In this document: one piece after another, positions 27,714 to 52,203 of the stretch | Layout: each line of letters begins with the position of its first letter | How positions within the stretch are numbered: position 1 is the stretch's first letter | Assembly (NCBI GenBank): GCA_024998685.1 | Contig: JACOEH010000015.1 | Location: forward strand, 1 to 64,000 | Length of the DNA: 64,000 bases | From: Nitrospira sp. | Lineage (GTDB): Bacteria > Nitrospirota > Nitrospiria > Nitrospirales > Nitrospiraceae | Reading direction: 5' to 3' | Position numbers and translations under genes: made by a program | The notes under the pieces: model-generated | The model's database searches: none | The model's input: the letters and a program-made list of their open reading frames with translations, nothing else | Told to the model about the DNA's origin: nothing

Positions 27714-29378
<1,665 letters not shown>

Positions 29379-29441
29379 CCCTTCGACATGCTCAGGGCAG
29401 GCCCTTTGAGGCAGGCTCATGGCACGAGGTTCAGCGAAGGG
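29379..29441. repeat. dispersed CCCTTCGAC...GCTCAGGG-type repeat
   Basis: The element starts CCCTTCGACATGCTCAGGGC and ends with CGAAGGG, so its ends are inverted. In translation on the minus strand it gives the ACPEHVEG signature typical of a repeat scattered through many environmental bacterial genomes. A related, shorter version lies in the relic at 33.5 kb. Confidence 0.6.
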
Positions 29442-29464
29442 CTCGGTGGGAAACCGCCGGGCCC
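29439..29464 (+). terminator. groEL terminator hairpin
   Basis: GGGCTCGGTGG pairs with CCGCCGGGCCC (two G-U wobbles) around a GAAA loop, followed by a T-rich TTTGTGTTT. It lies 60 bp after the groEL stop. The same hairpin type follows the groEL relics. Confidence 0.75.
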
Positions 29465-29638
29465 TTTGTGTTTGCAAGCCTCACCGACGGTTACAGTCAT
29501 CGACAGGATAGTTAGTCGTTGCCCTCTTGAGATCCGGCAAACGATTCCCTGAACGAGCACTTACCTCAAGCAAAGCGACCGGGTCCTTTTTTCACAAATC
29601 TTGAATCCATTCTGCCGACACGGTATAAACAACACTCT

Positions 29639-29824
29639 ATGAAGACATTGCAGGAAATTGAACAAGCGATTGCCACCTTGCCATTACCTGACAGGCTTCG
29701 GCTCTATAAGGACATGCCGCAATTGATCGCCCGAAATGCCGAAGACTTGGACTGGCAGTGGCTGGCCCTCGAAGGTTTCTTCCAGGACGATTCCCCAGAC
29801 GATCACATCTATGATCATCTATAG
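29639..29824 (+). CDS. putative antitoxin partner of a MazF/PemK-type toxin
   Basis: The 61-residue acidic protein (many Asp/Glu; QDDSPDDHIYD near the end) directly precedes a MazF/PemK-like toxin gene and overlaps it by 14 bp, the usual antitoxin-first arrangement. The first half (LQEIEQAIATLPLPDRLRLYKDMP) is helical and could be the DNA-binding or dimer part, but no standard AbrB or ribbon-helix-helix motif is visible. The call rests mainly on context. Confidence 0.65.
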   Translation: MKTLQEIEQAIATLPLPDRLRLYKDMPQLIARNAEDLDWQWLALEGFFQDDSPDDHIYDHL

Positions 29825-30146
29825 GGTTGGCGATGTTGTTTCTGTAAAGTTTCCCTTCGCCGACCTCCAAGCGCAGAAGCAACGGCCCGGCCTGGTGCTT
29901 ATGAGCAACGATATCGACCTAGTAGTCGCCCGTGTGACCACGCACTCTCCACGACATCAGTCCGATGTCGCATTGAACCGCTGGGCTGAGAGTGGCTTGC
30001 CACGTGCTTCGACCGTTCGTCTGACCAAGCTCGCCACCGTGGACCATCGGCTTGTTCACCGTGCCGTGGGGCATCTGCACTCGGAAGACATCCAATCAGT
30101 CATCCAAGCCTGGGACTATTGGCGGCGACTATCGTGGCCAGTCTGA
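29811..30146 (+). CDS. MazF/PemK-family toxin (predicted mRNA endoribonuclease)
   Basis: From the ATG at 29811 the 111-residue product carries the family's opening YRVGDVVSVKFPFAD and QKQRPGLVLMSN segments (residues about 4-35), a VARVTTHSP strand and a SVTVRLTKL-like strand (here STVRLTKLATVD), then a C-terminal helix. Known members cleave mRNA and are held in check by the antitoxin encoded just upstream. Located 430 bp after groEL, it is the first cargo gene of the accessory region. Confidence 0.85.
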   Translation: MIIYRVGDVVSVKFPFADLQAQKQRPGLVLMSNDIDLVVARVTTHSPRHQSDVALNRWAESGLPRASTVRLTKLATVDHRLVHRAVGHLHSEDIQSVIQAWDYWRRLSWPV

Positions 30147-30262
30147 GCCGGTAAAGATCAGCGGTCGATCCACGAAGCCTCTCCGTTGTATTTTCCGCCA
30201 CCTCAGATTATCGGTAAGACACCTCCCCAACTACTCGCTTCTTCTCCTTCCGCTGAACTCCT

Positions 30263-33055: not shown

Positions 33056-33471
33056 AACGTCCTCCACATTCATTAGTTTCCGGTATCACACCCCTGACAA
33101 ACTTTCACACACAGACAAGGCCGACCGACTGCCACACACAGCTCTCGACTTGATTCATACAGCAGAAACATTCTGACCTTCCGGCTACAGACATGCCGAC
33201 AAGACGCGCTCCACCATAGCGAAACTATTTCTGCTATTCGGTTGTGCGAGGCGAACTGATGAGGAAAACTATGCGGCTTTAAAGAAAAGAGTTTGAGTGA
33301 GTGAGTGCAATGGGAGGACCGCTTGGGAATGGAAGAAAAGGTCAGTCATGAGACCAGCCTCTACCTAGTGCCGCTGAGGGGATATCCTTATGGACCAGTA
33401 CGCTCTTCTACGTCAAGGTTTTCTTGAAAAGAAATTACTTTGGAGATGAGCGAACTATGAACCACTTGAGG
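33056..33471. other. gene-free stretch upstream of the Ig-like lipoprotein
   Basis: No supported gene is present. It must contain the promoter of the minus-strand lipoprotein gene, but no clear promoter was recognised. Its right edge runs into a decayed copy of the groEL 3' end. Confidence 0.4.
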
Positions 33472-33580
33472 ACGGCATGGACAGGATGTACTAACTTTTC
33501 GGCAAGCTTAGGGCAGGCTTATAGCAGAAGGTTCAACGAAGAGCTCGGTGGTTTCCCGCCGAGCCCTCCGTGTTTCAAGG
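33472..33580 (+). pseudogene. relic of the groEL 3' end with terminator (relic A)
   Basis: ACGGCATGGACAGGATGTAC plus TAAC matches the last codons and stop of groEL. It is followed by a TTTTCGGCAAGCTTAGGGCAGGC block and AGGTTCAACGAA, then a GCTCGGTGG / CCGCCGAGC hairpin and CCGTGTTTCAAG. These parts occur in the same order behind the intact groEL; the relic lacks about ten bases in the middle. Only the extreme 3' end is present. Confidence 0.75.
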
Positions 33581-33726: not shown

Positions 33727-35151
33727 TCACGATCCTTGTGTGGAAGTCCGGAATTGCTCGAAAAAAGGTTGTAAGTTCCCGCGGGCTCCCGCCAATCCCA
33801 ACAAGGCACGCCACACACCGAGACGGGCAAGCGCGTCCTCGATACTGGCCTGGACGAGCAGGTGTTGCGCTTCGGCGACTTCGACGACTGTCGCAAGGCC
33901 TGCACGGTAGCGGGCTTTCGTTTGCATTTCGGTGTCTCGCGACGCGGACAATTGGATCGGAGTATTGTCCGCCATACGGCGTGCGGCCCTGACTGTCTCG
34001 ACGGCTTTGGCGTGTTTTCCGGTGAGTGCTTGAAGCGCCTGATCGTAGGCGGCAAGCTCCGCCAGCTCATTGTGTTGCTCCACGGAACGCTTGGCACGAA
34101 CGGCGACGAAATCTAAAAACGAAAAGTTGACGGTCAAGCCGCCGGCCCAATTCGGAACGTCGGGGAATAACGCGCCGGCCCCGTTGGTTCTGTTGCCTTG
34201 GTTGTCCCAGCCGCTGCCTCGTCCAAAGAAGGCCGCTTGCAATTCAAACCGCGGTACCCATGCATAATCATAGGCTTCCTTGCGTTTTCGAAATACCTCG
34301 GCGGTCGCCGACTGAGCAATGGCCAGTGGATGGGTCCACGGGGCCGGATCGGGCAACGGGGTGAGGATCGGTCGATTGAGCAACGGACCCGTTTGGACTT
34401 CAATGCGCTCACCGGCGACTCCGAGCATTTCCGCCAATGCGGCCCGAGCGACTTCACGCGCCTGTTCAGCTTGGATAAGCTGGGTACGCGCCATCGCTTC
34501 TTCGGCTGTCGCACGGCTCGAATCTACCCCAGGTCGTAGCTTGCTCTTGACGAGAATCTCGACCGTTTCGGCAAACACATGCCGACGGTCCACGTTCGCT
34601 TGCATCGCTTCCACAGCTTGTTCGGCCATGATGAGCATGAAAAACGCCTCGCCGACCCCCACGCCCACGTCCAATTTGGTTAAATCGGCACCCGCCGCTC
34701 TCTGTCGCTCCTCCGCCCTCGCCGTCTCCATATTCGCCGCGCGCAGTCCGAAATCAAACGGTTCCCATCCAGCCATCACACCTCCGATACTCCCCCACGC
34801 TCCGGCATAGGACTTCCGCGCAAGATCGGGGCCGGTAAGGGGAAGGGTGAAGGCGTTTGGAAAGAACAGCCCTGAAACATTGTTGAAGGTGCCGTTGCTG
34901 ACTTGGTATCCCATATCCAGTCTCGGCAAATACGCGGTTCGTGTCAGATCGACACCTGATTTCGCGGCGGCCACACGGGCGACCGAGACTCGCACGGAGG
35001 GATAGTGATCGATGGCGAATTGAATGGCCTGGTCGAGCTTGAGAGGAGAAGACGGAAGGCTCATCGCTTGCCCGTGAACGACCTGAGGCTCTAAGGTGAA
35101 ACCCAGAGCCAGTAGAACAAGACCGGTCCCAATTATTGTGCATTGCTTCAT
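33727..35151 (-). CDS. TolC-family outer-membrane efflux protein
   Basis: The ATG at 35151 follows GGAGGGAGGGA. A signal peptide is present (TIIGTGLVLLALGFTLEPQVVHG). The body is two repeats of long helices typical of the OEP family: LKLDQAIQFAIDHYPSVRVSVARV near the mature N-terminus (shown in part) and QYRAGLATVVEVAEAQ-like text (here ARYRAGLATVVEVAEAQHLL) in the second half. It closes the RND-adaptor-channel operon and should form the outer-membrane channel of the pump. Confidence 0.9.
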   Translation of the reverse strand: MKQCTIIGTGLVLLALGFTLEPQVVHGQAMSLPSSPLKLDQAIQFAIDHYPSVRVSVARVAAAKSGVDLTRTAYLPRLDMGYQVSNGTFNNVSGLFFPNAFTLPLTGPDLARKSYAGAWGSIGGVMAGWEPFDFGLRAANMETARAEERQRAAGADLTKLDVGVGVGEAFFMLIMAEQAVEAMQANVDRRHVFAETVEILVKSKLRPGVDSSRATAEEAMARTQLIQAEQAREVARAALAEMLGVAGERIEVQTGPLLNRPILTPLPDPAPWTHPLAIAQSATAEVFRKRKEAYDYAWVPRFELQAAFFGRGSGWDNQGNRTNGAGALFPDVPNWAGGLTVNFSFLDFVAVRAKRSVEQHNELAELAAYDQALQALTGKHAKAVETVRAARRMADNTPIQLSASRDTEMQTKARYRAGLATVVEVAEAQHLLVQASIEDALARLGVWRALLGLAGARGNLQPFFEQFRTSTQGS

Positions 35152-35270
35152 AACAATCCCTCCCTCCTCCACACAGAGTGTGTAGTGTTTATACTTCATA
35201 ATGGAATGCTCGATTGCCTAGGACTAATACGAGGGATGACGCTCTGACGAGGATGGGAGGGCGAATCGTC

Positions 35271-36365
35271 TCAAAAGTCAGGTGCCGCCTCAGCCGATCG
35301 CAGATCAATTCTCGTTCCCGGGCGTAATTCATCGGTGCCCCGCACGACCACGGCGTCGAGTGGTTTCAAATCACCAAATACTTCCTGGAGATTGCCCATC
35401 ATTTCTCCCCGCCTGATAGAGACCCATTCAGTGGCGCCGTTGGGATCGATCCGGATGATGAACGTCTGCTCCGTCGTCGCGACCACGGCACTGCGTGGAA
35501 CGAAGAGAGTGGTGTACGGACGGCGCACGGGCCACTCCACTTCAGCAAACATCCCCGGAGCCAAGCGTTTCTTTCCATTTCCAACGTCCAATTCGACCGG
35601 CATCGTCCGAGTCTTCGCGTCCACGGACCGTGCAATGCGCCTCACCACGCCCATGAATCGTTCGCCGGGATAGGCCGACACCGTAAAGGACACCTCCACG
35701 CCTTCGGCGATTTCACCCGCGTTCGCCTCAGGCACAGGAACGACGAGTCTCAATCGGTCGAGCTGTTCTATGCGGAACAGCGGTTTACCTTGCCCGGGAG
35801 TCAGGAGGGCGCCTGGATGCGCCTGTCGTTCGGTGACCCTGCCGTTAAAGGGTGCCGCAATAACCAGATAATCTTCAATTTCCTTAAGTGCGACGACACG
35901 AGCGCGACTCGCGTCCACGGTCTTTTCAGCGACTTCCAAATCATTCACGGCGATCACTCCGGGAGTTTCGGCTGCTGTTCGAAGGTGCCGAAGCGTGATT
36001 TGATCGGCGCGCAGTTTCGCCTCCGCCTCCGCTCGTTGCGCGCGGAGTTCCGGCGCGACTAAACGGGCGAGGACCTGTCCCTGCCGAACGTCATCTCCGC
36101 GGTCAATTCCAATCCAATCGAGGAAACCGGCAACCTTGGGATACAGATCAACAGCCAAGTACGGTAAAAGTTCACCCGGCAGACGCGCACTCGTCTCCAG
36201 TTGACGGAGTTGAACAGGAACCACCTCGACCGTTCGGCGTCGTTCTCTCGACTGGTCTTCGTGAGCCTGCTCTTCTGACGGCGATGCCGTGAGAAAGCTC
36301 GCCAATCCGGCGCTAAGCGCGAGGAGCAAGAACCCGCCGGCCATCATCTTTCCATGGGTCTTCAT
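35271..36365 (-). CDS. RND efflux periplasmic adaptor (membrane fusion protein)
   Basis: The start at 36365 overlaps the stop of the RND gene as ATGA. An N-terminal signal anchor ([19 protein letters not shown]) is followed by the usual half-motif of the lipoyl domain ([37 protein letters not shown], spread over about 37 residues). After it come an alpha-hairpin and the second lipoyl half ([21 protein letters not shown] region). It bridges the inner-membrane pump and the TolC-type channel. Confidence 0.9.
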
Positions 36366-39300
36366 GGATGATCCTGTTCGACGGAAACGCACGGAGTTTC
36401 CTGCTCGGCGGGCGACATCGACGCTTCCGGCAACAACGACGCGGTTCTTGCCCTTCGTTCTCCGTGAGCGAGGGCGAACACAGCAGGCACCACCAACAAG
36501 CTGGATAGCGTGGCGGCGACCAGTCCCCCTATCACTGCACGGCCAAGAGGGGCTGTCTGCTCGCCTCCTTCACCGAGTCCGAGCGCCATGGGAATCATGC
36601 CGACGACCATCGCCAGACTCGTCATGAGAATCGGGCGCAATCGTTCACAGGCGCCATCGACGGCAGCCGCTGTCGCGGAACAACCGGCCCTCCATCGCGT
36701 ATCGGCAAAGGACACCAGGAGAATGGCATTGGCCACTGCAATCCCCATGGCCATGATGGCCCCCAAAAATGATTGCACATTCACGGTTGTTCTGGTCAGG
36801 AAGAGCATCACCAGCACACCGGCGAGAGCGGCAGGCAGTGTGGACAGCACGATGCCCGCATTGCGCCATGATTGGAAGCTGCCGACCAGCAGAAGCAGAA
36901 TCACCACCATCGTGAGCAAGAGGCCGGTGCGCAGCCCCGCCAACGTTTCGCGCATGGGACCGACTTGGCCGCGAAGCGTCACGGTGACTCCTTTGGGTAG
37001 CTGCCCTAACGCGGCAATGGTCTTCGTGACACGATCGGCTGCCCTGGCTAAATCTTCTCCTGCGACATTGGCCGTGATCGTGATCATCCGCTGCATATTG
37101 TGGCGATCATATTCGCCGAGCATCGTCCCTTGGGTCACAGTGGCCACATCCCGCACGTACACCCAGGGATTGCCGTTGACCGGAGTCATGACCGGAATAT
37201 TCCGGACATCTTCCAAGCCGGCCATTTGCACCTGCGGGACTTCGATTTGGATCTGATAGGCGACTCCCGACGAAGGGTCTGCCCAATACATTCGCTGAAC
37301 AAATCGACTCGAAGAAGTGGCCGCGACCAGCGAACGTGCCACATCCTCAGTCGTGACGCCCAGCTGTCCTGCTCGGAACCGGTCCAGGTCAACTTCGACT
37401 GTCGGATACTCCAATGGCTGTCCGAATTGGAGATCGCGCAGCGTCGGAACGGCCCGTAGCTTGCCCATCAGCTCATGGGCAACCGCCATGTTGGCGTCTA
37501 GATTTGGGCTCGTGACGGCAATTTCGATCGGGGTGGGAGAGCCGAGGCTGAGGACTTGGCTGACAAGGTCTCCCGCTTCAAACGAGTAGTTCGTGCCGGG
37601 AAGACGTTCGGGCAGCGTCCGGCGCAGACGGTCCTTCAAGTCCTCGACCGAGATCCCGGCGTCCCGCTTCAAGGCGATCCTCAGCACCGCCTCATGAGGC
37701 CCGCTGGTCCAAAGGTGCAACAGGTTGACTGGGTAACTTGAGCCGACCGTACCGACATACCCAAGTGTCACCCCTACGTTATCAGGCCCCGCCTCTTCCT
37801 CAATCGCGGCGAGCACCTCTTTCGCGAGGACTTCCGTGCGTTCGATCCTCGTCCCATCCGGTGCCCGGAGCCGCACCTGAAATTGCCCGGTATCGGCCGT
37901 GGGGAAAAGCTCGGTACCAAGATACTGTCCCACGACAAAGACGACGATCACGACCACCGTTGTGTACCCGATGAACATAAGCCGGTGATGGGGCAGAAGA
38001 ATCTGCAGGCATCGCCCGTAACCAAGCTTGACGCGCTCGAACATCCCATCCCGTTCCTCAGGAGGTCGCCTGCGGCCGAGCAGCCACACCGCCATGATCG
38101 AGACGAAGGTGCTGGAAAGTATATATGAAGCCATCATGGCAAACCCCACCGCCAAGGCGAGCGGGACGAACAGAGCGCGGCCGACGCCCGTCATAAAAAA
38201 CGATGGAATGAACACGGCCAGCACAGCCAACATCGACACGAAGCGCGGAACGATCGTTTCGACAGCCGAGTCGATCACCGCGCGGGCCGCAGAGGCCTCC
38301 TTTCCGAGATGGGCATGAATACTCTCAATAGCGACCGTCGAGGCATCGACAAGCACTCCCACGGACAATGCTAAACCACCCAGAGTCATGATATTGATGG
38401 TCTGCCCCGTAACCCACAAGGCAACGATCGACCCGAGCAGCGCACAGGGGATGGTCAGGAGCACAATCAGACTGCTCTTCCAACTCCGCAGAAAAATCAA
38501 TACCATCAGCCCGGTCAGCAACGATCCCAACATGATCTCGATGGCGAGCGCCTTGATCGTATTGGTCACGATCGCCGACTGATCGAACTCCAACGAGATG
38601 TCGATATCATCCGGAATAACGGCTTTGAATCTGGGCAATGCCTCCTTGACCCGATTGATCACCGCCAATGTCGAGGCGTCCGCCCGCTTCGTGACCGGGA
38701 TATAGATCGCTCGGCGGCCGTTGAAGAGCGCATACCCGGTCAGGATATCCGATCCATTTTCGACCCATCCGACATCGCGGAGATACACCGTTGGCCCTGC
38801 ACCGGTGCGGATGGGAAGATCCCGGAACTGTTGGATATCGGAAACCACGGCATTGAGCGCGGTGATCGTCATAAGATTGTGGATCCGTACATTGCCTGCC
38901 GGTGTAATCACATTCCCTTTATTGACGGCCTGAACCACCTCTTCCGGAGACATTTGATAGGCGCGGAGTCGCTCGGGATCGACGTGAATCACCACGGTGC
39001 GGGCATTTCCCCCGAAAGGTGGCGGTGCGGAAACACCGGGCAACGTAGCGAACAGCGGCCGCACACGAAACAGCGCCAAATCTTGTACTTCGCCGGCATT
39101 GCGCGTCTCGCTGTGGAACACCAGATACCCGACCGGTGCGCCGCCGGCGTCGTAGCGGATGATGTCCGGAGGCAATGTGCCGGGAGGCATAAAGGCGCGC
39201 GAGCGGTCGACATAGGCTATTGTCTGCGCCAATGCTTGATTCATGTCGGTGCCCGGATAAAAGAAGAGTTTGATGAGCGCGGCGCCTTGAATCGATTTGG

Positions 39301-39544
39301 ACTCAACGTGTTCGATCCCGAGAATGTAGAGGACATGGTATTCATAGAACGAGACCAGATACGCCTCCATTTGGGATGGTGCCATTCCCCCATACGGCTG
39401 GATCACGTAGATGGCGGGCAATCCCAGATCGGGAAAGATGTCGATGGGCATACTGGACAGAGCAAGAACGGCACAGAGCGCCACTGCGACAATGACCACA
39501 AGAACGGTCACCGGCCGTCGCAAGGCGGAAAAAACCATCCACAT
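36362..39544 (-). CDS. RND-family efflux transporter, permease subunit
   Basis: From the ATG at 39544 (GGAG seven bases upstream) the 1060-residue protein has the classic RND layout: TM1 at 11-32, large periplasmic loop, TM2-6 from about 335, second loop and TM8-12. In TM4 the proton-relay region reads [13 protein letters not shown] with Asp400 followed by Ala, where AcrB has Asp407-Asp408. In TM10 the AcrB Lys940 position reads VANAIL, so the lysine is missing. It may use a different relay, as heavy-metal RND pumps do in part. Substrate cannot be told from sequence. The gene follows a sigma-54-type promoter. Confidence 0.92.
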
Positions 39545-39586
39545 GATACGCTCCGTCTGAACTTTCGTGATTCTGAAACAGAATTG

Positions 39587-39602
39587 AGCAAGCAACGGAC
39601 CA
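39587..39602 (-). promoter_or_regulatory. candidate sigma-54 (-24/-12) promoter of the RND operon
   Basis: On the minus strand the sequence TGGTCCGTTGCTTGCT fits the TGGCACG-N4-TTGCW consensus with exact spacing: TGG, CG and TTGCT match, with two mismatches in the -24 block. Transcription from here would start about 30 bases before the RND ATG. The gene immediately upstream encodes a sigma-54-dependent activator. Confidence 0.65.
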
Positions 39603-39796
39603 CGAGGCCGGGTCGTAGCAACAGAAGATGAGCCTGCTCGTCCCGAGGAAGAGGCCTTCCACAAATATCTGAATTGTTCAGGGTTATTCGCCCACCGGAC
39701 ATCCCGATCGGCGCACCGGTCGAAAAGCAGAGAGGAACGGTGATCGCTCAATTCAGCAAGAGTGGGCAGAAATCCCCCAGGGTGAGGGAGTGCTTC

Positions 39797-41191
39797 TCAG
39801 AATTCGGGCTTTCGGACGAGGCCGTACTCGCGAATCTTGTCGAAGAGTTGCCGACGACTGATGCCCAGGAGACGCGCAGCCTGCGTGCGATTCCATGTCG
39901 TATGGCTCAGCGCTTCCTGAATGACGCGCCGTTCGGTCTCCGCAAGAATGTCCTTGAGATGGAATGTGGGTGTTGAAGACGAATATTGAACGGAACTGGA
40001 AGACGGCAATCCGTCGGCCGTAAGATCCTCAGGCTGGATGAGGCGGCCTCTCGTCAGGATGGCCGCCCGGACCAACACATTGTGCAACTCGCGGACGTTT
40101 CCCGACCATGACCGGAGGGAAAGATGCCGCATCGCATCCGGAGAAATCGCCAACTGCGGCCAGTTGTATTTTCCGGCCAGTGTCCGAATGATATGTTCTG
40201 CGAGAACGGGAATGTCGCCACGGCGAGACCGCAGCGGCGGCAATTCGATCATGACCACGTTCAAACGGTAATACAAATCCTCTCGGAAACGCCGTTCGGC
40301 GATCAGCGCGGGAAGGTCGCGGTTCGTCGCCGCAATGATCCGCACATCGACCCGAATCGTCTGTTCGCCACCGACTCGCTCGAACTGTCCATTTTGCAGC
40401 GTGCGAAGAAGTTTGGTCTGCAAGTCGAGACCGAGGTCGCCGATTTCGTCGAGAAACAGCGTTCCTCCGTTTGCCTGTTCGAACCGCCCGATCCGACGCG
40501 TCACGGCGCCGGTAAAGGCGCCTCGTTCATGTCCGAAAAACTCGCTCTCCAATAGCGTCGGGCTGAGCGCGGCGCAGTTCACCTTGACGAAGAGTTTCCC
40601 CGCGCGATCGGAATTGCGGTAAATGGCGTTTGCCACTAATTCCTTGCCGGTGCCGCTTTCACCGAGGATCAACACCGGCTCCTGAGTTGCGGCCACCTTC
40701 CCGATCGTCTTGAACACCGCCAGCATCGCAGGACTGTGTCCGATCAACTCCTCCCCGGAGGAATCTGCCTCATCATTGTTGCTCATCAATGCCCGCACCT
40801 GAGCCATCAAGACGGTCTGCTCCAGGGCCCGTCGAACAGTAAAGAGCACGTCGTCCAAATCGAACGGCTTGGTGATATAGTCATAGGCCCCGAGCTTCAT
40901 CGCTTCGATGGCCGCGCTACTTCCTCCCAAGGCGGTGATCACAATGACCGGCGTGTCCTCCAACCGGTCCTGATGATCGCGCAAGACGTCCAACCCGGTG
41001 CATCCAGGCATCTTGAGATCGAGCAGAACCAGGGTAATGCAGGGGGTTTCCAGCGCTTTGGCGGCTTCCATACCGTCCGCAGCTTCCACGACCCGATAGC
41101 CCTCCGATTCCATGAGTACACGAAGGTTTGTCCGGATGACCGGGTCGTCGTCGGCAACGAGGATGGTGTCTGAATCGCGGGATAGCATCAT
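39797..41191 (-). CDS. sigma-54-dependent response regulator (NtrC family)
   Basis: The receiver domain (1-120) has the acidic pair in VADDDP, the phosphoacceptor Asp58 and Lys108 in YITKPF. The AAA+ domain has Walker A GESGTGKE at 177-184 and the sigma-54 contact loop GAFTGA at 224-229, both intact. The C-terminal Fis-type helix-turn-helix reads TWNRTQAARLLGISRRQLF. It follows the histidine kinase gene by 5 bp and precedes the pump genes, so it probably activates the -24/-12 promoter in front of the RND gene. Confidence 0.95.
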   Translation of the reverse strand: MMLSRDSDTILVADDDPVIRTNLRVLMESEGYRVVEAADGMEAAKALETPCITLVLLDLKMPGCTGLDVLRDHQDRLEDTPVIVITALGGSSAAIEAMKLGAYDYITKPFDLDDVLFTVRRALEQTVLMAQVRALMSNNDEADSSGEELIGHSPAMLAVFKTIGKVAATQEPVLILGESGTGKELVANAIYRNSDRAGKLFVKVNCAALSPTLLESEFFGHERGAFTGAVTRRIGRFEQANGGTLFLDEIGDLGLDLQTKLLRTLQNGQFERVGGEQTIRVDVRIIAATNRDLPALIAERRFREDLYYRLNVVMIELPPLRSRRGDIPVLAEHIIRTLAGKYNWPQLAISPDAMRHLSLRSWSGNVRELHNVLVRAAILTRGRLIQPEDLTADGLPSSSSVQYSSSTPTFHLKDILAETERRVIQEALSHTTWNRTQAARLLGISRRQLFDKIREYGLVRKPEF

Positions 41192-41196
41192 GGTTG

Positions 41197-42573
41197 TTAC
41201 CGTTCACCCGTTGGAAACACTACTCGGAACGTCGCGCCCGGATCCGATTGCGTGACCAGTTCGATAACTCCGCCATGTTGAAGGATGATCTCGCGGCACA
41301 ACGCCAATCCCAGACCCGTCCCTTCCGGACGAGTGGTGAAGAAGGGTTCGAACAAATGCCCACGGTCTTTTGACGAAATGCCGGAACCGGTATCTGCGAT
41401 GGTCAGCTCCACGGCCTGTGCCTGTTTTTGCCAACGCGTACGGCAATGGAGCCGGCCGCCGTGGGGCATGGCTTGCAGCGCGTTGGTGGCCAGGTTCAAC
41501 AGGGCTTGACGCAATGCGGTCGGAGATCCCAGCACCGGCGGCAATCCTTTTCCCAGATCAGGCTCGAGTCGCACGTCTTGAGCAGTCGCTTGGGCCTCCA
41601 GCAACGTCAATGTCTCCGCCACCAACTCGTTCATCTGGATCGGCCGCCGGTCCGCATGTTCGGCCCTCGCGAAATGCAAAAGACGAGTGAGAATCTCGTT
41701 GAGACGGTCTGTGGCCTGCACGACCGCATCCACGGAACCCATGATATGAGCTCGATCGGGAAACCGTTGCCAGAGCTGAATCGTCGAGCGGATGCCGGCC
41801 AAGGGGTTTCGAATTTCGTGCGCCACGCCCGCGAGCAATTTCCCGAGTGACGCGAGCTGCTCCGATCGTCGTAATTCTTCCGTGAGTTTTTCCTGCGCCG
41901 ATCGTTGCCGTGCCAGCGACCGACTGAGCGTGAACGTCAGCACCAGGGCCAGGGTCAGGCCCGCTAAGGCGAGGCCGACGGAAATTTCATAACGACGAAG
42001 TTGGCTTTGCAGTTGCTCCGGTCCTGTCAGGCGAACCATCGTCCAGGTCGCAGCGGGCGCGGGACGTTCGGAACCGATCGCCTCCGTCACGACCATGACA
42101 CGACTGGGACCGATATCCCGAACGGTGAAGAGGGAGGTTTGTTCCGAGAGGCTTTGTTGGGCTTGTTGGCGAATCAAGGGCGCTTCCAAAGGCGGCGGAT
42201 CGGTCCTTGACGGCTCCACGGGGTGTCTAGCGCCGGCGGTCGGAAAGCCGTATCCGCTGAACCGATTCGCATCGCGTAAATAGAATCCCCCTTCCACACC
42301 GGGAAAATTGGTGAGAACTCGATTGGCGACTGAGGCTAACGTTTGATGCAACTTCTCCAGCTGTTCAGGGTTTTGTCGCGACATCGATCGAAGAGCTGAG
42401 CCGGCAGATTCAGCCATGAGGTGGCTGGCTTCTTGAAGGGAAGTGCGAATCTGCAGTTCTTGCTGCGGAAGCGTCGCGGCAGAATGCGCGTTGTACAGGA
42501 GCGTGCCGATAGCCCCAAGCAAAAGGGCAACGATGACCCCGCCCTGCAGACGTGTGCTCCAGATTCTCGGCAC
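41197..42573 (-). CDS. membrane sensor histidine kinase
   Basis: The start is a GTG at 42573 with AAGGGTGAG a few bases upstream; the open frame upstream runs into the groEL relic and is not coding-like. The protein has a first membrane helix (GGVIVALLLGAIGTLLY), a periplasmic sensing domain, a second helix (ISVGLALAGLTLALVLTFTL), then the HisKA box GVAHEIRNPLAG with His252. The HATPase domain follows with N-box NLATNALQAM, G1 DTGSGIS and G2 GTGLGLALC. The layout resembles ZraS/AtoS-type partners of NtrC-family regulators. The signal is unknown. Confidence 0.93.
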   Translation of the reverse strand: MPRIWSTRLQGGVIVALLLGAIGTLLYNAHSAATLPQQELQIRTSLQEASHLMAESAGSALRSMSRQNPEQLEKLHQTLASVANRVLTNFPGVEGGFYLRDANRFSGYGFPTAGARHPVEPSRTDPPPLEAPLIRQQAQQSLSEQTSLFTVRDIGPSRVMVVTEAIGSERPAPAATWTMVRLTGPEQLQSQLRRYEISVGLALAGLTLALVLTFTLSRSLARQRSAQEKLTEELRRSEQLASLGKLLAGVAHEIRNPLAGIRSTIQLWQRFPDRAHIMGSVDAVVQATDRLNEILTRLLHFARAEHADRRPIQMNELVAETLTLLEAQATAQDVRLEPDLGKGLPPVLGSPTALRQALLNLATNALQAMPHGGRLHCRTRWQKQAQAVELTIADTGSGISSKDRGHLFEPFFTTRPEGTGLGLALCREIILQHGGVIELVTQSDPGATFRVVFPTGER

Positions 42574-42673
42574 AGGCTCACCCTTGTATTTCCAGTTTCG
42601 CCGGGCGTTCTTCGAAATACAAGACCCGTACCATGGCCGCTGAACTTCTCCCACGAACCATGCGCACCAGATA

Positions 42674-42775
42674 GACACCGCCACGGTATGGAGAAGGAAA
42701 GGGATGCACTAAGCAGATGCCCTATACCAATAGCTCGGAAGCTTGAGGGCGCCGGTTGGGAAATCGGCACAACCC
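42674..42775 (+). pseudogene. relic of the groEL 3' end with decayed terminator (relic B)
   Basis: GACACCGCCACGGTATGGAG, then GAAGGAAAGGGATGCACTAA, matches GCACAGCCACGGCATGGAGGGGATGTACTAA at the end of groEL apart from a short insertion. Behind the stop come ATAGCTCGGA and GAGGGC as in the 50.3-kb relic, then a degenerate GCCGGTT...AAATCGGC hairpin. It lies between the kinase gene and parD. Confidence 0.65.
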
Positions 42776-42848
42776 TCCCCTTAACGCGAGCATCATAAAT
42801 ATGATAAAATGTGACTAATGAATCACTCAAGAGGCTATGGAGGCTAAT

Positions 42849-43124
42849 ATGTCCAGCATAGAACGTATGACTATTACCATGCCAGCCGATATGGCAGCGG
42901 TTATCAAAGCTGCAGTTGACGATGGCGACTACGCATCAACCAGCGAAGTTGTGCGCGAAGCACTGCGCGAATGGAAGCTCCGACGAGTGGTCCAGTCGCA
43001 GGAACTTGCCGCGCTGAAAGCGGACATTGACAAGGGGCTGGCAGACGTTGCCGAAGGTCGCGTCCGCGACTTTGATCCAGCAAAAATCATTGCGCGCGGG
43101 AGGAAGTTATTAGCCAAACCCTGA
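42849..43124 (+). CDS. parD: ParD-family ribbon-helix-helix antitoxin
   Basis: The ATG at 42849 is preceded by GGAGG with a 5-base spacer. The 91 residues have the ParD form: RMTITMPADMAAVIKAAVDDGDY strand and helix, STSEVVREALREWKL second helix, and a C-terminal toxin-binding tail (ALKADIDKGLADVAEGRVRDFD). It should repress its own promoter and neutralise the toxin encoded downstream, with which it overlaps by 16 bp. It is the first gene after groEL relic B. Confidence 0.9.
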   Translation: MSSIERMTITMPADMAAVIKAAVDDGDYASTSEVVREALREWKLRRVVQSQELAALKADIDKGLADVAEGRVRDFDPAKIIARGRKLLAKP

Positions 43125-43426
43125 TCCTCCGTCTTACCGACACAGCGGAATCCGACCTTGCAGAAATCTGGGCATATATTGCTACTGAGGCGGATGAAGC
43201 GATTGCGACCAATTTTCTTGAGCGTATTGCCAAGACCATAGATATGGTGCGGCAGTCTCCGCTGATGGGAACAGCTCGCGAGCAACTCGGCAGCGGCTTG
43301 CGCGTGACGTTTCAGCATCCCTATGCCATTTACTATCAGGTCAGCGACTGCGAACTTATCATTGTTCGGGTTTTTCATGGCGCACGGGATGCCATCGCCA
43401 TCGCTGAACAAGGCGGGTTTCTGTAA
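43109..43426 (+). CDS. parE: ParE/RelE-superfamily toxin with an unusual start codon
   Basis: The frame gives a full ParE toxin: LRLTDTAESDLAEIWAYIATE at the N-terminus (residues about 7-27), FLERIAKTIDMVRQSPLMGT, and the C-terminal strands YAIYYQVSDCELIIVRVFHGARD. No ATG, GTG or TTG lies at the right place. The best-supported start is ATT at 43109, because GGGAGGA lies five bases upstream. A CTG at 43121 overlapping the parD stop is the alternative. Known ParE toxins act on DNA gyrase. An unusual start may keep toxin levels low. Length (105 residues) is normal. Confidence 0.8.
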   Translation: MSQTLILRLTDTAESDLAEIWAYIATEADEAIATNFLERIAKTIDMVRQSPLMGTAREQLGSGLRVTFQHPYAIYYQVSDCELIIVRVFHGARDAIAIAEQGGFL

Positions 43427-43433
43427 GGATGAC

Positions 43434-43628
43434 ATGAAACGAGAATACGATTTTTCAAATGCTGTGCGGGGCAAATTCTACCGGAAGGGAGTGGAGCTGA
43501 GTTTCCCTATCTATGTGGATGGGTCCATGCACCAGCGTCTCGAGCGCCTTGCCAAGAAAAAACCGGTGACAGATCTGGTGAATCAATTGCTTAAAAGGGA
43601 CCTGGAGTTATTGGAAAGCTTGTCGTAA
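43434..43628 (+). CDS. small BrnA/CopG-like putative antitoxin
   Basis: The 64-residue protein begins MKREYDFSNAVRGKFYRKG, continues ELSFPIYVDGSMHQRLERLA and ends TDLVNQLLKRDLELLE. This is the layout of small ribbon-helix-helix-like antitoxins often found alone or beside toxin genes. It starts 7 bp after parE, so it may be cotranscribed with parDE. No second toxin is visible beside it. Confidence 0.65.
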   Translation: MKREYDFSNAVRGKFYRKGVELSFPIYVDGSMHQRLERLAKKKPVTDLVNQLLKRDLELLESLS

Positions 43629-44476: not shown

Positions 44477-45217
44477 TTAGCGGCTCAGATAACGCCTTCC
44501 GACCATCCACTCCTTTGCCAATTGTTGCGCCTCGGCGATCTGGGCAGGTGTCATTCGTGCAGCAAGTTCATCACGAGACTGTGCCCCCAGATGTTCTCCA
44601 TTCACTCCACCCAAATGGTACCATTTATAGGCCTGCACAAAGTCCGGTGTCACGCCTTTCCCATGCTCGTACATAAAGCCGAGTTTTGTGAAGGCGAGCG
44701 CGTTTCCTTGTTTGGCAGCCAAAAGAACCCAGAATAGAGCTTGCTGATAATCCTCACGGCATCCACGCCCGTTGTAATACAGCGTTCCTAGATTGACTTG
44801 AGCATCGACGTTGCCCTGAAGAGCGGCTTTCTCATACCAGTGACAGGCTTGAACATCGTCCTGTGGCCCGCCCTGCCCACCACGGTACAACTGGGCGAGG
44901 TTATACTGCGCGACTGCTTGCCCTTGCGCCGCTGCCTGTTCGAAGTACTGCCTAGCCTGCGCATAGTCTCGAACTACCCCGCGCCCATTGAGATACAGCC
45001 ATCCGAGACTCGTCTGTGCTTGCGCATGTCCATCCTCGGCCAATGCTCGCCATTCATGCATAGCTACGGCATAGTCCCCACGCTTGTAGGCATCCAACCC
45101 GGACGAATAGTCAGCCCATACATCGGTCGAGAGACAACCCGACGACACCGCAAGCGCCAGAGGAAGTATTACGCGCACGAGTAATGCCCTTCTTCTCCCA
45201 TCCTGACAGTCTCTCAA
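44477..45217 (-). CDS. Sel1-like repeat lipoprotein
   Basis: The 246-residue protein has an export signal with a lipobox (LALAVSSGCLS). Four to five Sel1-type repeats of about 36 residues follow, for example AQTSLGWLYLNGRGVVRDYAQA, AQYNLAQLYRGGQGGPQDDVQA and AQVNLGTLYYNGRGCREDYQQA in successive units. Such repeats form helical solenoids for protein contacts. It is convergent with the TRL-like gene. Confidence 0.85.
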   Translation of the reverse strand: MRDCQDGRRRALLVRVILPLALAVSSGCLSTDVWADYSSGLDAYKRGDYAVAMHEWRALAEDGHAQAQTSLGWLYLNGRGVVRDYAQARQYFEQAAAQGQAVAQYNLAQLYRGGQGGPQDDVQACHWYEKAALQGNVDAQVNLGTLYYNGRGCREDYQQALFWVLLAAKQGNALAFTKLGFMYEHGKGVTPDFVQAYKWYHLGGVNGEHLGAQSRDELAARMTPAQIAEAQQLAKEWMVGRRYLSR

Positions 45218-45306
45218 CCGGCAACAAAGTTGTACAACTGATGCTTGTACGATAGTATCAGGCGCTACAAGCTCAGCCTGCGCTGAAAAGGTTGGAGACC
45301 TGTCTC

Positions 45307-45750
45307 ATGAGAGGTCTATACCAGTATAAATACACCCTAAGCATACCACGCGATGCTCAAAGCGTCGTGCCGCTCATCCTTAGCATCGCCATATGTTTGC
45401 TCTCGCTTCCCGGATGCGGCTTCATGCTCCATGGAGACAAGCAGGTTATTACGTTCGACTCAAAACCACCCGGTGTTACGGTCACGCTTGATAACGTCGT
45501 CCAATTTGTCACACCTCACACCATCGTCTTAGCACGATCATCGAATCATCAGGCCCTGTTCAAAAAAGACGGATATGAGCCACAACACCTCTCGATCAAG
45601 CGCGAATTCTTGATAGGCCCCTCCATCATCGGAAATATTCTTCCGCTCTTTCCGGTTGGCTTGACCGTCGACGTCGTCACTGGAGCCGCGTGGGGGTTTG
45701 AAAAAGACTACCTCGCCGTCGATATGGCCAAATCAAAGACACAGCCATGA
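45307..45750 (+). CDS. PEGA-like small lipoprotein
   Basis: The ATG at 45307 has GGAG nine bases upstream. The signal ends in a lipobox (LLSLPGCGF). A PEGA-like strand follows (VITFDSKPPGVTVTLDN), and the C-terminal half holds a hydrophobic GPSIIGNILPLFPVGLTVDVVTGAAWG segment (in two parts) that may sit in or on the membrane. Its stop overlaps the start of the next gene as ATGA, so the two are cotranslated. Confidence 0.72.
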   Translation: MRGLYQYKYTLSIPRDAQSVVPLILSIAICLLSLPGCGFMLHGDKQVITFDSKPPGVTVTLDNVVQFVTPHTIVLARSSNHQALFKKDGYEPQHLSIKREFLIGPSIIGNILPLFPVGLTVDVVTGAAWGFEKDYLAVDMAKSKTQP

Positions 45751-46757
45751 CTGCGTACCCGCTATGGAGATGCCGCGCTCTCTTGCCGGTAAGCTTGTGG
45801 CTGGCGGCACTCGGCTCGGCAATATCCGGCTGTACCGGACCAGCGGTCTCTGCATCCACAAGCGAGCGACCGCTGGAGGTCAACGAGGATCACCATGGCA
45901 TACCATTCGTCACGACGACCTCTCGCCCCATTCCATTTACACTGGCACCCGGATCAAAAATAGGCCTCCTGCACGAAGACCGTGACGAGACCGACCGACA
46001 AGTTCGGGTCGCGCTTGAGCAAGCCATCTTCTCGCTCAAAGCCTCCGTCTCAAATCTCATTGTCGTGGAACGACGCAGCGTTGGAGATCTTGAAACGGAA
46101 TTTCGCTTTCAGGCTAGTGGGAAAGTGAAGGATCAAGATCTGGCCAAGATCGGGCACTTTTTAGGCTTGGATTACGTGGTGGTCTTCGATTCCCTCTATC
46201 AAGACCTAAACGAACTCTACGGGTTGCGAAACCAGATCGATACCTGGGAGGTCACACTACCGCTGAAGATTATCGCCGTGAACACGGCGGAGATGAAACT
46301 CCACTGCCTGGCAACCGCCACGGCCCATGTTGGGAAACAGATGACGGCCGTAGAAGTGCGACTGCTCAATCAGGAAGCCCTCAGCGTCGCAACCGCTCTA
46401 GTCAGCCAATGTCTGTCTTCCTCATTGCAAGGAGCATCCCTCCATAGAGAGAACGACATCATTCCGGCCATAGGAAGTGAGGGTCTTACAGAGCAAGATA
46501 TGGATGGATACAAAATGGAGATGAGACAAGTTTCCCACCGGGGGAAAGAATGCTTCTCTTCCCCCGGTGGTCTTTTCCTAGCTACCGCTAATACCGGTAG
46601 TAATACCCATAGTACTGGTAATAATGGAGGCAGTTCCGGTATTGATTGTATGAATACATCAAATTACTGCAGGTCCAGCCGGGCTGCCAGCCGGTCGGGG
46701 GATGCAATTGTGGCGGCAGCGTGCCCTTCTGAAGCGCCTGCTCCAAATAAGCCATGA
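45747..46757 (+). CDS. CsgG/LpoB-like lipoprotein with an aberrant C-terminal tail
   Basis: A lipobox (GSAISGCTGP) is followed by a domain reminiscent of CsgG/LpoB: VRVALEQAIFSLKASVSNLIVVERRSVGDLE (in part), LAKIGHFLGLDYVVVFDSL. From about residue 255 the frame runs through a strong terminator hairpin and then antisense to a convergent gene. The tail is low-complexity Ser/Thr/Asn and not protein-like. A shift of +1 just before the hairpin would meet a TGA at once, so the natural stop was probably lost by a small indel or point change. The first 250 residues appear sound. Confidence 0.65.
   Translation: MTAYPLWRCRALLPVSLWLAALGSAISGCTGPAVSASTSERPLEVNEDHHGIPFVTTTSRPIPFTLAPGSKIGLLHEDRDETDRQVRVALEQAIFSLKASVSNLIVVERRSVGDLETEFRFQASGKVKDQDLAKIGHFLGLDYVVVFDSLYQDLNELYGLRNQIDTWEVTLPLKIIAVNTAEMKLHCLATATAHVGKQMTAVEVRLLNQEALSVATALVSQCLSSSLQGASLHRENDIIPAIGSEGLTEQDMDGYKMEMRQVSHRGKECFSSPGGLFLATANTGSNTHSTGNNGGSSGIDCMNTSNYCRSSRAASRSGDAIVAAACPSEAPAPNKP
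46535..46570 (+). terminator. terminator hairpin inside the end of the CsgG-like frame
   Basis: CCACCGGGGG (46535-46544) and CCCCCGGTGG (46561-46570) are perfect partners, extended inward by AAAGAA and TTCTCTT, and followed by TCTTTTCC. Its position inside an open frame suggests that the frame originally ended before it. Confidence 0.8.
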
Positions 46758-46920
46758 TCGAAGCCTTGTCACCCGAATTGAATGGCCGATCCAGCACATT
46801 CTGATTCAGCTGCTTCTGCATGGCTTCCATATCTTCTTTTTCTCCGGCCTGCGATGCGCCACTCCATAACAGGGTCGCTATTCCGACGCTCAAGCAGACG
46901 GCTAGACTCTTTCGCGTCAT
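46588..46920 (-). CDS. small exported protein with a tyrosine-rich C-terminus
   Basis: The ATG at 46920 follows GGAGGAAAG. A signal peptide (SLAVCLSVGIATLLWSGASQAG) precedes a helical charged part (KEDMEAMQKQLNQNV). The C-terminal 22 residues are dominated by Tyr (YSYNQYRNC, then HYYQYYGYYYRY). Two cysteines in this region (WTCSN and RNCLHY) could pair in the periplasm. The family is not recognised. Confidence 0.7.
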   Translation of the reverse strand: MTRKSLAVCLSVGIATLLWSGASQAGEKEDMEAMQKQLNQNVLDRPFNSGDKASIMAYLEQALQKGTLPPQLHPPTGWQPGWTCSNLMYSYNQYRNCLHYYQYYGYYYRY

Positions 46921-46959
46921 CAGCTTTCCTCCATCCACACACCGTGTATGTGCGGCTTT

Positions 46960-47739
46960 CTAGAACAACCCGGAGAGTGCACGGGTCAGCCCCTGCGTCA
47001 GAGCCGGCGCGGCTTCATCATAGTCCAGGTTCGCCTTGTTCGCCGAACTGACCACCCGCGTCCGATACTTCTTAAACTTCGTGACTTCGGACGACGTTTG
47101 CTGCTGCGTGCCGCCCATTCCCTGCGCGAGGTTTTGCTGGCTGTCCTGACGAACGATGACGCCGTCGGCTGCTTTCTCGACCACCTGAATATCAGTGATC
47201 ACAGTGAAGTAGATATCTTTGACGAGCGAGCCCGTCACAAACTCCGTGGCTCCTCCAAGAGCCGCGCCGGCCAGTCCGCCGGCAGCAGCTCCGGTCCAGC
47301 CTCCTGCCGCAGCGCCAACTCCCGCGCCAGCCAATCCGCCCACCGTCAGCGCCCCACCATAACCGGCCTGCAACGCCGCCTGCGCCGCCGTCACATCATT
47401 CTTCCCAACTTGGAGCACATTGGCTTGAAGCCGATAGTAGGCCTCCTTGGGATCCTGCGTAACCCGGTACCCACGTTTCGTCATGGCGGCCTTGATGGGC
47501 CCCTCTAAATCGAAATTGTCTTTATCCGAGGTATTCCGCACTTCGACATACATCACTTTTTGTTCGGGACCGACCGGGTCCAAGAAAATCGTTTCGCTCA
47601 TCTTGGTTTGCACATCAAGATTCCGCTTGGTGATCATCGTCTGCGAGGCCGCACAACCGGACAACAACATCAGCGCTACTCCCGCCATAGCGACACATGC
47701 CGCCGCCAACGATCGTGAGTTTCTAGTCCTCTTCATCAT
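46960..47739 (-). CDS. traT: TraT-like outer-membrane lipoprotein
   Basis: The ATG at 47739 follows AAGGAGGG. A lipobox (LMLLSGCAAS) is followed by the TraT pattern: TMITKRNLDVQTKMSETIFLDP (in part), YVEVRNTSDKDNFDLEG and IKAAMTKRGYRVTQDPKEAYY. A central glycine-rich hydrophobic stretch (AGAGVGAAAGGWTGAAAGG) and the closing FKKYRTRVVSSANKANLDYDEA also fit. TraT on F-type plasmids gives surface exclusion and serum resistance; chromosomal homologues occur widely and the role here is unknown. No conjugation genes are nearby. Confidence 0.85.
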   Translation of the reverse strand: MMKRTRNSRSLAAACVAMAGVALMLLSGCAASQTMITKRNLDVQTKMSETIFLDPVGPEQKVMYVEVRNTSDKDNFDLEGPIKAAMTKRGYRVTQDPKEAYYRLQANVLQVGKNDVTAAQAALQAGYGGALTVGGLAGAGVGAAAGGWTGAAAGGLAGAALGGATEFVTGSLVKDIYFTVITDIQVVEKAADGVIVRQDSQQNLAQGMGGTQQQTSSEVTKFKKYRTRVVSSANKANLDYDEAAPALTQGLTRALSGLF

Positions 47740-47983
47740 CAGCCCTCCTTGGCTATAGGTGATGGCCCATTGCAGTGAATACATCAGATGCACTATCAAT
47801 AACGTTGACGGTTCCTATGGAATTACAGATTCGACACAAATCCCCCACTCGACGAGCGCGAGAGGGTGGCACAATCTCTCACTCATTGCCAGATCCACAA
47901 GGCCCTATTATCCTGCCAAACGGACTGAGCGCATGAACCGCTATCCGGAGGGCTCGGCGAGTACACTCGCCGAGCCCGGAGCC

Positions 47984-49579
47984 TTAGTTCACATTGCAGA
48001 ATGTCGGAGTTCCTCCTGGTGATAGGGCTGGCTCCTGATCAAGCCAGGCATTCACTGGAGTCACTGACACATTGCATTGTGCATCCACGGCGATATTGAA
48101 GACATGCCACCAAATCCTCGCGCCTTCTCCAGCTGGCGGCGCAAAGACGGTAGTGTTTCCGGCTCTTATCAGCTCCACACGTGCAGGAGACTCAGTGATG
48201 CCCGGGTTCTGCGTCTCGCTGAAATTCTTCACGGCATAAGTGTAGGTCCCCTGCATCAACTTGGTGATTGTCACGACTTCGGGCCCAAAGCTGGTGAGAT
48301 CATCCACGTCAAGACTCGCAAAAGGCAGGGCAGTCAGGGAACCCTTCGCGCCGAAATACACATGACCGGCGTTGGGCGTAAACAGATGAGAATCAAGATC
48401 GAGGGGGCTCGTGCCCCAGGTCAGCTTGATCTTGAAACCGCTGCCGGCGGTGGTCGTAACGAGGCACGGATCCAGCGCAATGTTCGCTCCTGCGGGACCG
48501 GCAGTCATTGTGTTGGTTAATAGCGCGCCAACAAGGGCTGTAATGGTCGCCTTACCATTCTTGCGGATAGGAATCTGAAACGACCCGTCTGTTGCAGTAT
48601 AGACACTTGAAAAACCTGAATAGTCAATGCCATCGCTTTCCACGATAGCGTTGGCGACAAGCTGGCCCGAGGCATTCTTCACGCATCCGCTCACGAAAAT
48701 GGTCTCCATCACTAGATCCGCATTCCAGTAACTAAAACGGGTCACACTGCCTTCATAGTAGCGATCGGAACCGTTCGTGACGAGTGTCGCTTGTCCGTCT
48801 TGTATCCATCGCCCAGTCGAGCCGTCGAAATAGAAGAGCGGAATCGTTGATGGCACATTGGTGGAAGGAGTGGAAGGGGTTCGCGTGCTGACCGGGATGC
48901 GGATAGTTGAGGTATTTCCTGGAGCCAGACTATAGCGCGCGTTGTTGCTGTCACGAACATCTATCAGCATGGCCCCGAAGCTCTCAATCTGAGCGATACT
49001 TCCATTAGTGGAAGCGGTGAAGTCTCCAGGCATATCACTCGTTGTAGTCGCCACGTTGATGGGTGTGACCGAAACCATGACATTAGCAGCGGGAGATGCT
49101 CCCGATTGTGGGATGAGTCCGTTAGGCGGCAATACGATTTGGGCCGAAGAGTTCGGTACGGTTACTGTGCCTCCGGTCGCAATCGCCACATTCTGAGTGA
49201 CGCCATCTTTCAAGAGTTGTATGGTCAGCGATGTGCTCTGGCCTGCTTGTACGCGGGTAATCCGAAAATTCTCCGCAAACCCATCGGCATCCACACGCAC
49301 CACAGTTCGATCAGCCGCAGGCACAGCAAGCGTATAACTGCCATCAGCCCCGGACGAGGCCCGCGCAGACCCTGCCTCGATCGTTGCATTCGCGATGCCT
49401 CCCGAACCATCTGAAGCAATTACACGGCCGGTAATAGTCCCATTGGGAGAAGGTGGTGGTGCTGCCGGTGGCGCATCCTCCCCTCCGCATGCTGCAAGGG
49501 TCGAGAGCAGTAAGAGCGCGGGTATCACACACCAAGCCCGATACCCTGAACACACTGGACGCTGATGGTCTCTCTTCAT
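47984..49579 (-). CDS. surface lipoprotein, paralogue of the 30-33 kb Ig-like lipoprotein
   Basis: A lipobox (LSTLAACGGED) is followed by the same regulatory-like N-terminal domain and central region as the protein at 30-33 kb: GTITGRVIASDGSGGIANATI, VDADGFAENFRITRVQAGQS, SFGAMLIDVRDSNNARYSLAPG and FSYWNADLVMETIFVSGCVKN all have direct counterparts. The C-terminal part differs: LTWGTSPLDLDSHLFTP recalls DUF2135-type domains instead of He_PIG repeats. The two genes lie in different cargo segments of the accessory region. Confidence 0.78.
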   Translation of the reverse strand: MKRDHQRPVCSGYRAWCVIPALLLLSTLAACGGEDAPPAAPPPSPNGTITGRVIASDGSGGIANATIEAGSARASSGADGSYTLAVPAADRTVVRVDADGFAENFRITRVQAGQSTSLTIQLLKDGVTQNVAIATGGTVTVPNSSAQIVLPPNGLIPQSGASPAANVMVSVTPINVATTTSDMPGDFTASTNGSIAQIESFGAMLIDVRDSNNARYSLAPGNTSTIRIPVSTRTPSTPSTNVPSTIPLFYFDGSTGRWIQDGQATLVTNGSDRYYEGSVTRFSYWNADLVMETIFVSGCVKNASGQLVANAIVESDGIDYSGFSSVYTATDGSFQIPIRKNGKATITALVGALLTNTMTAGPAGANIALDPCLVTTTAGSGFKIKLTWGTSPLDLDSHLFTPNAGHVYFGAKGSLTALPFASLDVDDLTSFGPEVVTITKLMQGTYTYAVKNFSETQNPGITESPARVELIRAGNTTVFAPPAGEGARIWWHVFNIAVDAQCNVSVTPVNAWLDQEPALSPGGTPTFCNVN

Positions 49580-49820: not shown

Positions 49821-50180
49821 TTAATAGGGCCATATGTGCCTAGTAGGGAAGTCGTGCCATGGAGTGAGAAGTGAGGATGGAGTTTGGTATTCAGACACTT
49901 TAAACAACCGTTGGCAGAGAGTTCCTAAGCAAACCTCTGGATTACCCGTATGTCCTAGAGCTGCACGAAAGAGAGGAGGCTTCTGTGGCCGTGAGAAAAA
50001 CGAGAGAAATTGATCGTGCACCATCTTTGTGCAGTGAGCATGGTCGTTCGAGAATCGCTTGCGGGCCGCTACGCGATCCTCCGTGCCGTACCCCATCCGG
50101 ATGGCGCAACGCTCCAATTCTTTCTCTTCGGCGGGAAATGAATGGGTCTGGAGGTCATGGACCACTTCTTCTCCACTCAC
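49821..50180 (-). pseudogene. duplicated, truncated 3' end of the GlnE-like gene
   Basis: The 119-codon frame contains VVHDLQTHSFPAEEKELERC and IRMGYGTEDR near its start, then HTKMVHDQF-like text (here HCTKMVHDQFLSFF) and PLFRAALG. Residue for residue this parallels the C-terminal end of the intact GlnE-like protein encoded at 50.4-52.1 kb (MVHDLQTHALPERSEELQRC, VRMGYGMDDR, HTEMVHRTFRSFF, PVFKATL). The original stop is lost and the frame continues into unrelated sequence. It has no upstream part and is joined directly to a groEL relic. Confidence 0.8.
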
Positions 50181-50220
50181 CTCACCACCCTCATCTGGTC
50201 CGACGCATGACGGCCTTAAT

Positions 50221-50320
50221 ACTCTCGACCGAGGTCGTGATCACCGAACTCCCTGAGGAGAAGAAAGAACCGGCTATGCCGGGGGGCGGACACAGCCGGA
50301 GACATGGAGGGATGCACTAA
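50221..50320 (+). pseudogene. relic of the groEL 3' end (relic C)
   Basis: The translated relic reads [20 protein letters not shown], then GGHSRRHGGMH, against [20 protein letters not shown], then [11 protein letters not shown] in the intact groEL. The nucleotide match is high over about 95 bp up to the stop codon. Nothing of groEL upstream of the last 35 codons is present. A terminator hairpin of the groEL type follows. Confidence 0.88.
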
Positions 50321-50361
50321 AACTCAAGAGCTGATGGCCGATAGCTCGGAGAAAAGCATGA

Positions 50362-50387
50362 GGGCTCGGCGGGCAACCGCCGAGCCC
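50362..50387. terminator. groEL-type terminator between relic C and the GlnE-like gene
   Basis: GGGCTCGGCGG pairs perfectly with CCGCCGAGCCC around a GCAA loop and is followed by TTCGTATTTTT. It is 27 bp from the stop of the convergent GlnE-like gene and could serve both directions. Confidence 0.85.
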
Positions 50388-50413
50388 TTCGTATTTTTGG
50401 CTCCCTGCTGCTG

Positions 50414-52138: not shown

Positions 52139-52203
52139 GGCGCGGCATTATACTGACTGGCTCCGCTACGCACAATGAAACCCGTTCGGGTATACTGAAG
52201 CCC

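Follow-up and report, generated by a model that had tools for sequence, protein, structure and literature searches.

Homology-facilitated illegitimate recombination, in which a homologous anchor on one side and an illegitimate joint on the other integrate foreign DNA, is known from transformation in Acinetobacter, Streptococcus and Pseudomonas stutzeri. It has also been described for E. coli conjugation (PMC3240628) and has been proposed to shape the type VI secretion system (T6SS) immunity-gene arrays of Vibrio, where part of a resident gene is exchanged for an incoming module, the older parts are shifted downstream and components come from other strains without an integrase (2017, PMC5361080). 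A similar displacement process was put forward there for Rhs tips; as cited in that paper, Rhs C-terminal displacement leaves orphan 3′ ends in series (Jackson et al. 2009), with a constant 5′ gene, a variable 3′ end and old tips downstream in direct orientation. The interval between groEL and glnE in Nitrospira resembles these arrays in that it holds 3′ fragments downstream of the live genes, in live orientation and of other-strain origin (exceptions, G004 and G076). Sequential displacement is already known from T6SS and Rhs loci, and here it concerns two housekeeping genes that face each other. What is displaced in the Vibrio arrays are effectors whose retained immunity genes are under selection, whereas at groEL–glnE they are housekeeping-gene tails, the cargo is unrelated and both sides of the convergent pair are used; Rhs tails, by the account cited, are functional toxin tips, whereas tail change in groEL and glnE looks like a by-product. 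Tyrosine-recombinase genomic islands in gene 3′ ends also restore the gene end and leave the displaced end at the far side, but at groEL–glnE the breakpoints vary and no integrase was found on the contig. Moreover, homology-facilitated illegitimate recombination is known from laboratory-selected single events, in contrast to the repeated natural events at one locus to which our data point. Our literature search found no paper joining groEL, glnE and Nitrospira, and none pairing this type of recombination with toxin–antitoxin modules.

The window analysed here is a 64,000-nucleotide stretch from a Nitrospira sp. draft genome (W; the other genomes compared carry G-numbers). Throughout the genus, groEL and glnE are convergent and face each other. 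Among the 53 genomes with both genes on one contig, the gap between them was 82–151 bp in 26, 316–798 bp in 6 and >1 kb in 21; that is, 27 of the 53 are expanded (0.3–21 kb), the widest being the window itself, with approximately 21 kb of accessory DNA between live groEL and live glnE. The preliminary description, made from the window alone, had supposed that the two genes were once direct neighbours and had pointed to other Nitrospira genomes for adjacent convergent copies; these are present genus-wide, and 26 of the 53 genomes retain the direct adjacency. For a control convergent pair (window positions 4920–6380 and 6392–7264), the gap was 21–82 bp in 18 of 19 genomes (for the nineteenth, the retrieved stretch did not yield the partner); in those 19 genomes, the groEL–glnE gap was tight in 5 (Fisher p = 3e-5). 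Foreign DNA has landed repeatedly in the groEL–glnE interval of Nitrospira, and this hotspot is rich in toxin–antitoxin modules: Pfam families among 68 sampled proteins of small inserts in relatives included ParE (6), ribbon-helix-helix antitoxins (4), HEPN (2), TumE (2), ParD (2), PIN (2), YoeB (2), HicA (1), PemK (1) and nucleotidyltransferases. A PADLOC scan of module proteins gave candidate matches alone and no confirmable established defence system. The interval offers a concrete place to study how toxin–antitoxin modules enter slow-growing nitrifiers.

Beside live glnE, the window carries a minus-strand glnE 3′ fragment (49953–50164), 40 bp of filler, a plus-strand groEL 3′ fragment (50205–50319), a terminator and then intact glnE (Table 1). 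BLASTN within the window aligned the groEL piece (50205–50320) with the live groEL end (29263–29378) at 84% over 117 nt (E = 1e-28) and part of the glnE piece (50073–50164) with live glnE at 80% over 93 nt (E = 1e-15), and nhmmer searches with profiles of the live gene ends of the genus recovered the groEL end plus terminator (50208–50396; E = 9.5e-39) and the glnE end (49953–50164; E = 5e-38). On these matches the composite of broken glnE and groEL ends noted in the preliminary description is real, and its topology (groEL, terminator, accessory DNA, glnE fragment, groEL fragment, terminator, glnE) is as stated there. The assignment of the whole 119-aa open reading frame (ORF) at 49821–50180 to truncated glnE holds above approximately 49953; the ORF has no Pfam match and glnE homology stops near this position, so that the ORF is glnE in part only. 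Searched against the genus, the filler (approximately 50165–50204) gave no match of its own. The stop codons of the groEL fragment and of glnE lie approximately 95 bp apart, the spacing seen in genomes with groEL and glnE directly adjacent.

Table 1 Features between live groEL and live glnE in the window
Feature	Position	Strand	Evidence or remarks
Live groEL, 546 aa	27738..29378	+	Pfam Cpn60_TCP1 7.5e-79
Terminator of live groEL	29434..29473	+	3′UTR of CTTCGACA..CTCAGGGC type, common to G061/G083
MazEF-like toxin–antitoxin pair	29639..30146	+	Antitoxin ORF 29639–29824 (presumed from position); PemK/MazF toxin ORF 29736–30146 (Pfam PemK_toxin 1.9e-10)
Ig/carboxypeptidase-regulatory-domain lipoprotein	30263..33073	-	Top layer; homologue adjoins groEL fragment in G093
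groEL-end scar 2: last codons, 3′UTR, terminator	33472..33575	+	nhmmer E 3.6e-16 and alignment
RND efflux operon (TolC-like, HlyD-like, AcrB-like), sigma-54 response regulator, histidine kinase	33727..42684	-	
groEL-end scar 3 (probable): GGGATGCACTAA, degenerate UTR, terminator	42672..42756	+	nhmmer E 4.2e-4 and sequence
ParD-like antitoxin (42837–43124), ParE-like toxin (to 43426), antitoxin-like ORF (43323–43628)	42837..43628	+	Called by resemblance (ORFs, translations), no individual scores
Sel1-repeat protein, lipoprotein-like and uncharacterized genes	44477..49579		Layer common to G001, G049
Carboxypeptidase-regulatory-domain lipoprotein	47984..49579	-	Last member of the 44477..49579 layer
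Displaced glnE 3′ fragment, codons ~499–567	49953..50164	-	Tail type of live glnE of G075
Displaced groEL 3′ fragment, codons ~510–546	50205..50319	+	BLASTN, nhmmer
Terminator between groEL fragment and live glnE	50361..50396		
Live glnE, 574 aa	50414..52138	-	Pfam GlnE 1.9e-60, GlnD_UR_UTase 4.9e-30

We consider this junction to be probably one scar in a stack of sequential insertions, each replacing a gene 3′ end, in the convergent groEL–glnE intergenic region. Two interior groEL-end scars, missed in the preliminary description, lie within the accessory DNA (33472–33575 and, with a weaker match and hence only probable, 42672–42756, bordering the RND module). The DNA just 3′ of the first aligns with the DNA just 3′ of live groEL in G080 and G001, in both of which the RND module stands directly behind live groEL; live groEL would therefore once have ended at this scar, and 29379–33471 would have arrived later with a new groEL tail. 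That the terminator at 33536 is a mere look-alike was ruled out, as alignment places it within the groEL end. The focal groEL fragment is probably the oldest layer, being the groEL end nearest to glnE and having direct-neighbour spacing. The window thus probably records three layers, and at least two, each bounded by a recognizable gene end. Across the genomes, the nhmmer profile detected groEL-end scars in W (three), G093, G076 and G092 and copies of the UTR plus terminator in G042, G047 (two), G056 and G077. All groEL scars are on the plus strand, the orientation of live groEL (terminator-only profile matches on the minus strand were disregarded as palindrome echoes), and terminator hairpins recur at module borders. 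An assembly chimera, conceivable given that the window comes from a 105-contig draft, is exceedingly improbable, as the same kind of groEL fragment lies beside glnE in the independent genomes G093 and G076 and scars recur in many assemblies, including on long contigs. The groEL 3′UTRs of W, G061 and G083 contain a CTTCGACA..GCTCAGGGC stretch that resembles a dispersed repeat (window positions 29379–29430 and 33495–33530) and is missing from the other UTR type.

On the glnE side, a profile search located 16 displaced tails in 12 genomes (G001, G004, G018, G044, G047 (2), G049, G050 (2), G051 (3), G056, G063, G075 and W), all in the orientation of live glnE and all inside the interval; none lay outside it in the 983 kb searched. 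These tails are accompanied by differing cargo and break at approximately codon 480 in a TumE-linked group (G004, G018, G063, G044, G049 and G050), at codon 452 in G047 and at codon 499 in W. The glnE fragment of W matches the live tail of G075 best (80% over 172 nt, 145 bits, versus 76 bits over 93 nt for its own glnE); the nucleotide match between the two glnE ends of the window anticipated in the preliminary description thus exists, but between different alleles. Likewise, the G063 fragment is 93% identical to the G011 tail versus 86% to its own, and the 3′UTR of the groEL fragment in W resembles those of G075, G010 and the sister species G074, that of live groEL those of G052, G061 and G083. 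In the last 200 nt of live glnE in G051, identity to G078 drops from approximately 95% to 65% and identity to G011 climbs from approximately 75% to 85%; live glnE of G051 is chimeric with a donor tail, and that of W may be. The foreign fragment alleles, the UTR types and the parent switch in G051 together indicate that live gene tails have been exchanged between clades, most simply together with cargo. Core-gene tails such as that of glnE, when exchanged between species by such events, can mislead gene trees. Polyphyly of the B-type glnE tail was set aside as support, because the gene-body tree fits one origin.

Other scars are closer to home. In G004 the glnE fragment shares 95% identity with the resident tail, and in G076 the groEL fragment shares 99% with the resident end, which means that some scars fit simple duplication, and plain duplication or within-species transfer also occurs (G076 and G004). 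These scars, together with a true tandem of a 1,693-bp unit at 98% identity in G047, speak for the origin that the preliminary description had envisaged, namely that the groEL–terminator–glnE junction was duplicated internally in tandem and its first copy then took up all the accessory DNA; this origin yields the observed order exactly. In W, however, the glnE copies are different alleles, the groEL copies differ in UTR type and two further groEL ends lie within the supposed single insert; the insert was therefore not one piece, and the relatives vary. We find tandem duplication distinctly unlikely as an explanation, and the allele differences (glnE fragment and groEL UTR) rule it out as the single cause in W. 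The repeated unit of G047 (contig C15, 1284957–1289959; locus L051) comprises a glnE tail, a terminator, a VapC-like PIN toxin and an antitoxin-like ORF. In G050 (contig C6, 113029–131421; locus L052), glnE breaks off at codon 416, and 16 kb away lies a glnE end with 100% identity over 107 nt to the G018 tail; glnE seems here to be interrupted by a large insert, or misassembled, and one of the two glnE pieces of G050 may be the terminal part of this broken resident gene.

In the succession of 3′-end-replacing insertions that we favour, incoming DNA from another Nitrospira would bring a groEL (or glnE) tail, a terminator and attached cargo. Homologous recombination inside the resident gene would occur on one side and illegitimate joining on the other, leaving the live gene whole with a donor tail and the resident tail displaced behind the new cargo. 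At the focal joint, donor DNA ending in a foreign glnE tail would have been joined to codon 510 of the old groEL end beside glnE, and further rounds would have given the groEL-end scars at 33472 and probably 42672. One-sided homologous recombination with illegitimate joining accounts for the pattern and would require no integrase, and no tyrosine or serine recombinase (PF00589 and PF00239) was detected on the window's contig (C21). This manner of joining is our inference, as are the direction in which each event ran and the entry of the DNA by uptake; the W genome encodes homologues of ComEC and DprA, which is compatible with uptake but no proof of it. The same order could also arise by Campbell-type integration, in which a circle with groEL fragment, terminator, accessory DNA and glnE fragment, its ends sealed where glnE codon 499 meets groEL codon 510, would enter by a single homologous crossover in groEL. 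This is very unlikely: it calls for a circle of unexplained origin whose ends met precisely between two broken genes, the interior groEL scars demand repeated events, and parts of a linear arrangement, with accessory DNA and glnE tail running into intact glnE, are found in G001 and G075. If the interval is an ordered record of insertions, comparison of strains would allow one to measure how often homology-facilitated illegitimate recombination occurs in nature, from which donors and with what polarity, and would do so outside toxin-tip loci.

One regularity runs counter to successive 3′-end replacement, as random joining does not predict it. In W, G093 and G076 alike, the groEL fragment begins at codon 510, with ATG where groEL has GTG, and the left flanks are unrelated. 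A pattern scan of 84,980 species, in which the window's own genome may be absent, found the ATG-type copy elsewhere only in the records of G076 (JAOUEB010000089.1) and G093 (CABVRX010000017.1). Gene 3′ ends are classical attachment sites for integrative elements, and a site-specific element that uses the groEL 3′ end (approximately codon 510) as its attachment site and carries a replacement tail would fit both the shared start and the scan, the present cargo being decayed or integrase-less descendants. We nevertheless regard such an element as unlikely, given that other groEL scars start near codons 536–539 and glnE scars at approximately 452, 480 and 499, and that no integrase or resolvase was found on the contig or among the 25 most common families in the sampled module proteins. 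Nor was an IntI or other tyrosine recombinase, as expected of an integron cassette array, found on the contig. The coincidence at codon 510 may reflect chance, a preferred joining point or a small ORF; the fragments that start there (at 50205 in W) could encode a peptide of approximately 37–39 aa. Doubtful but conceivable is a wider form of sequential tail replacement, an integrase-free cassette system in which toxin–antitoxin and other modules would move between Nitrospira species with a groEL or glnE tail as landing homology and groEL codon 510 as preferred joint, core-gene tails serving as general attachment sites for gene capture.

Several neighbouring features were also observed. Two divergent GlnE-like genes adjoin each other in the window (50414–54483) and are kept across the genus, one encoding 574 aa and the other a longer ORF of 888 aa with a further match to an ACT-like model. 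A single GlnE domain is present in each, which gives the impression of a split bifunctional GlnE. Open frames of approximately 763–772 aa in many relatives indicate that the true start of the longer gene is probably downstream of 51817. Just past this second glnE-like gene lies a gene for a Fic/DOC family protein with DUF4172 (54720–55835). In G021 (contig C1; locus L099, 12683–13045 in the glnE-minus orientation), a groEL end stands by a run of N near glnE, with full groEL approximately 960 kb off, which is probably a scaffolding gap.
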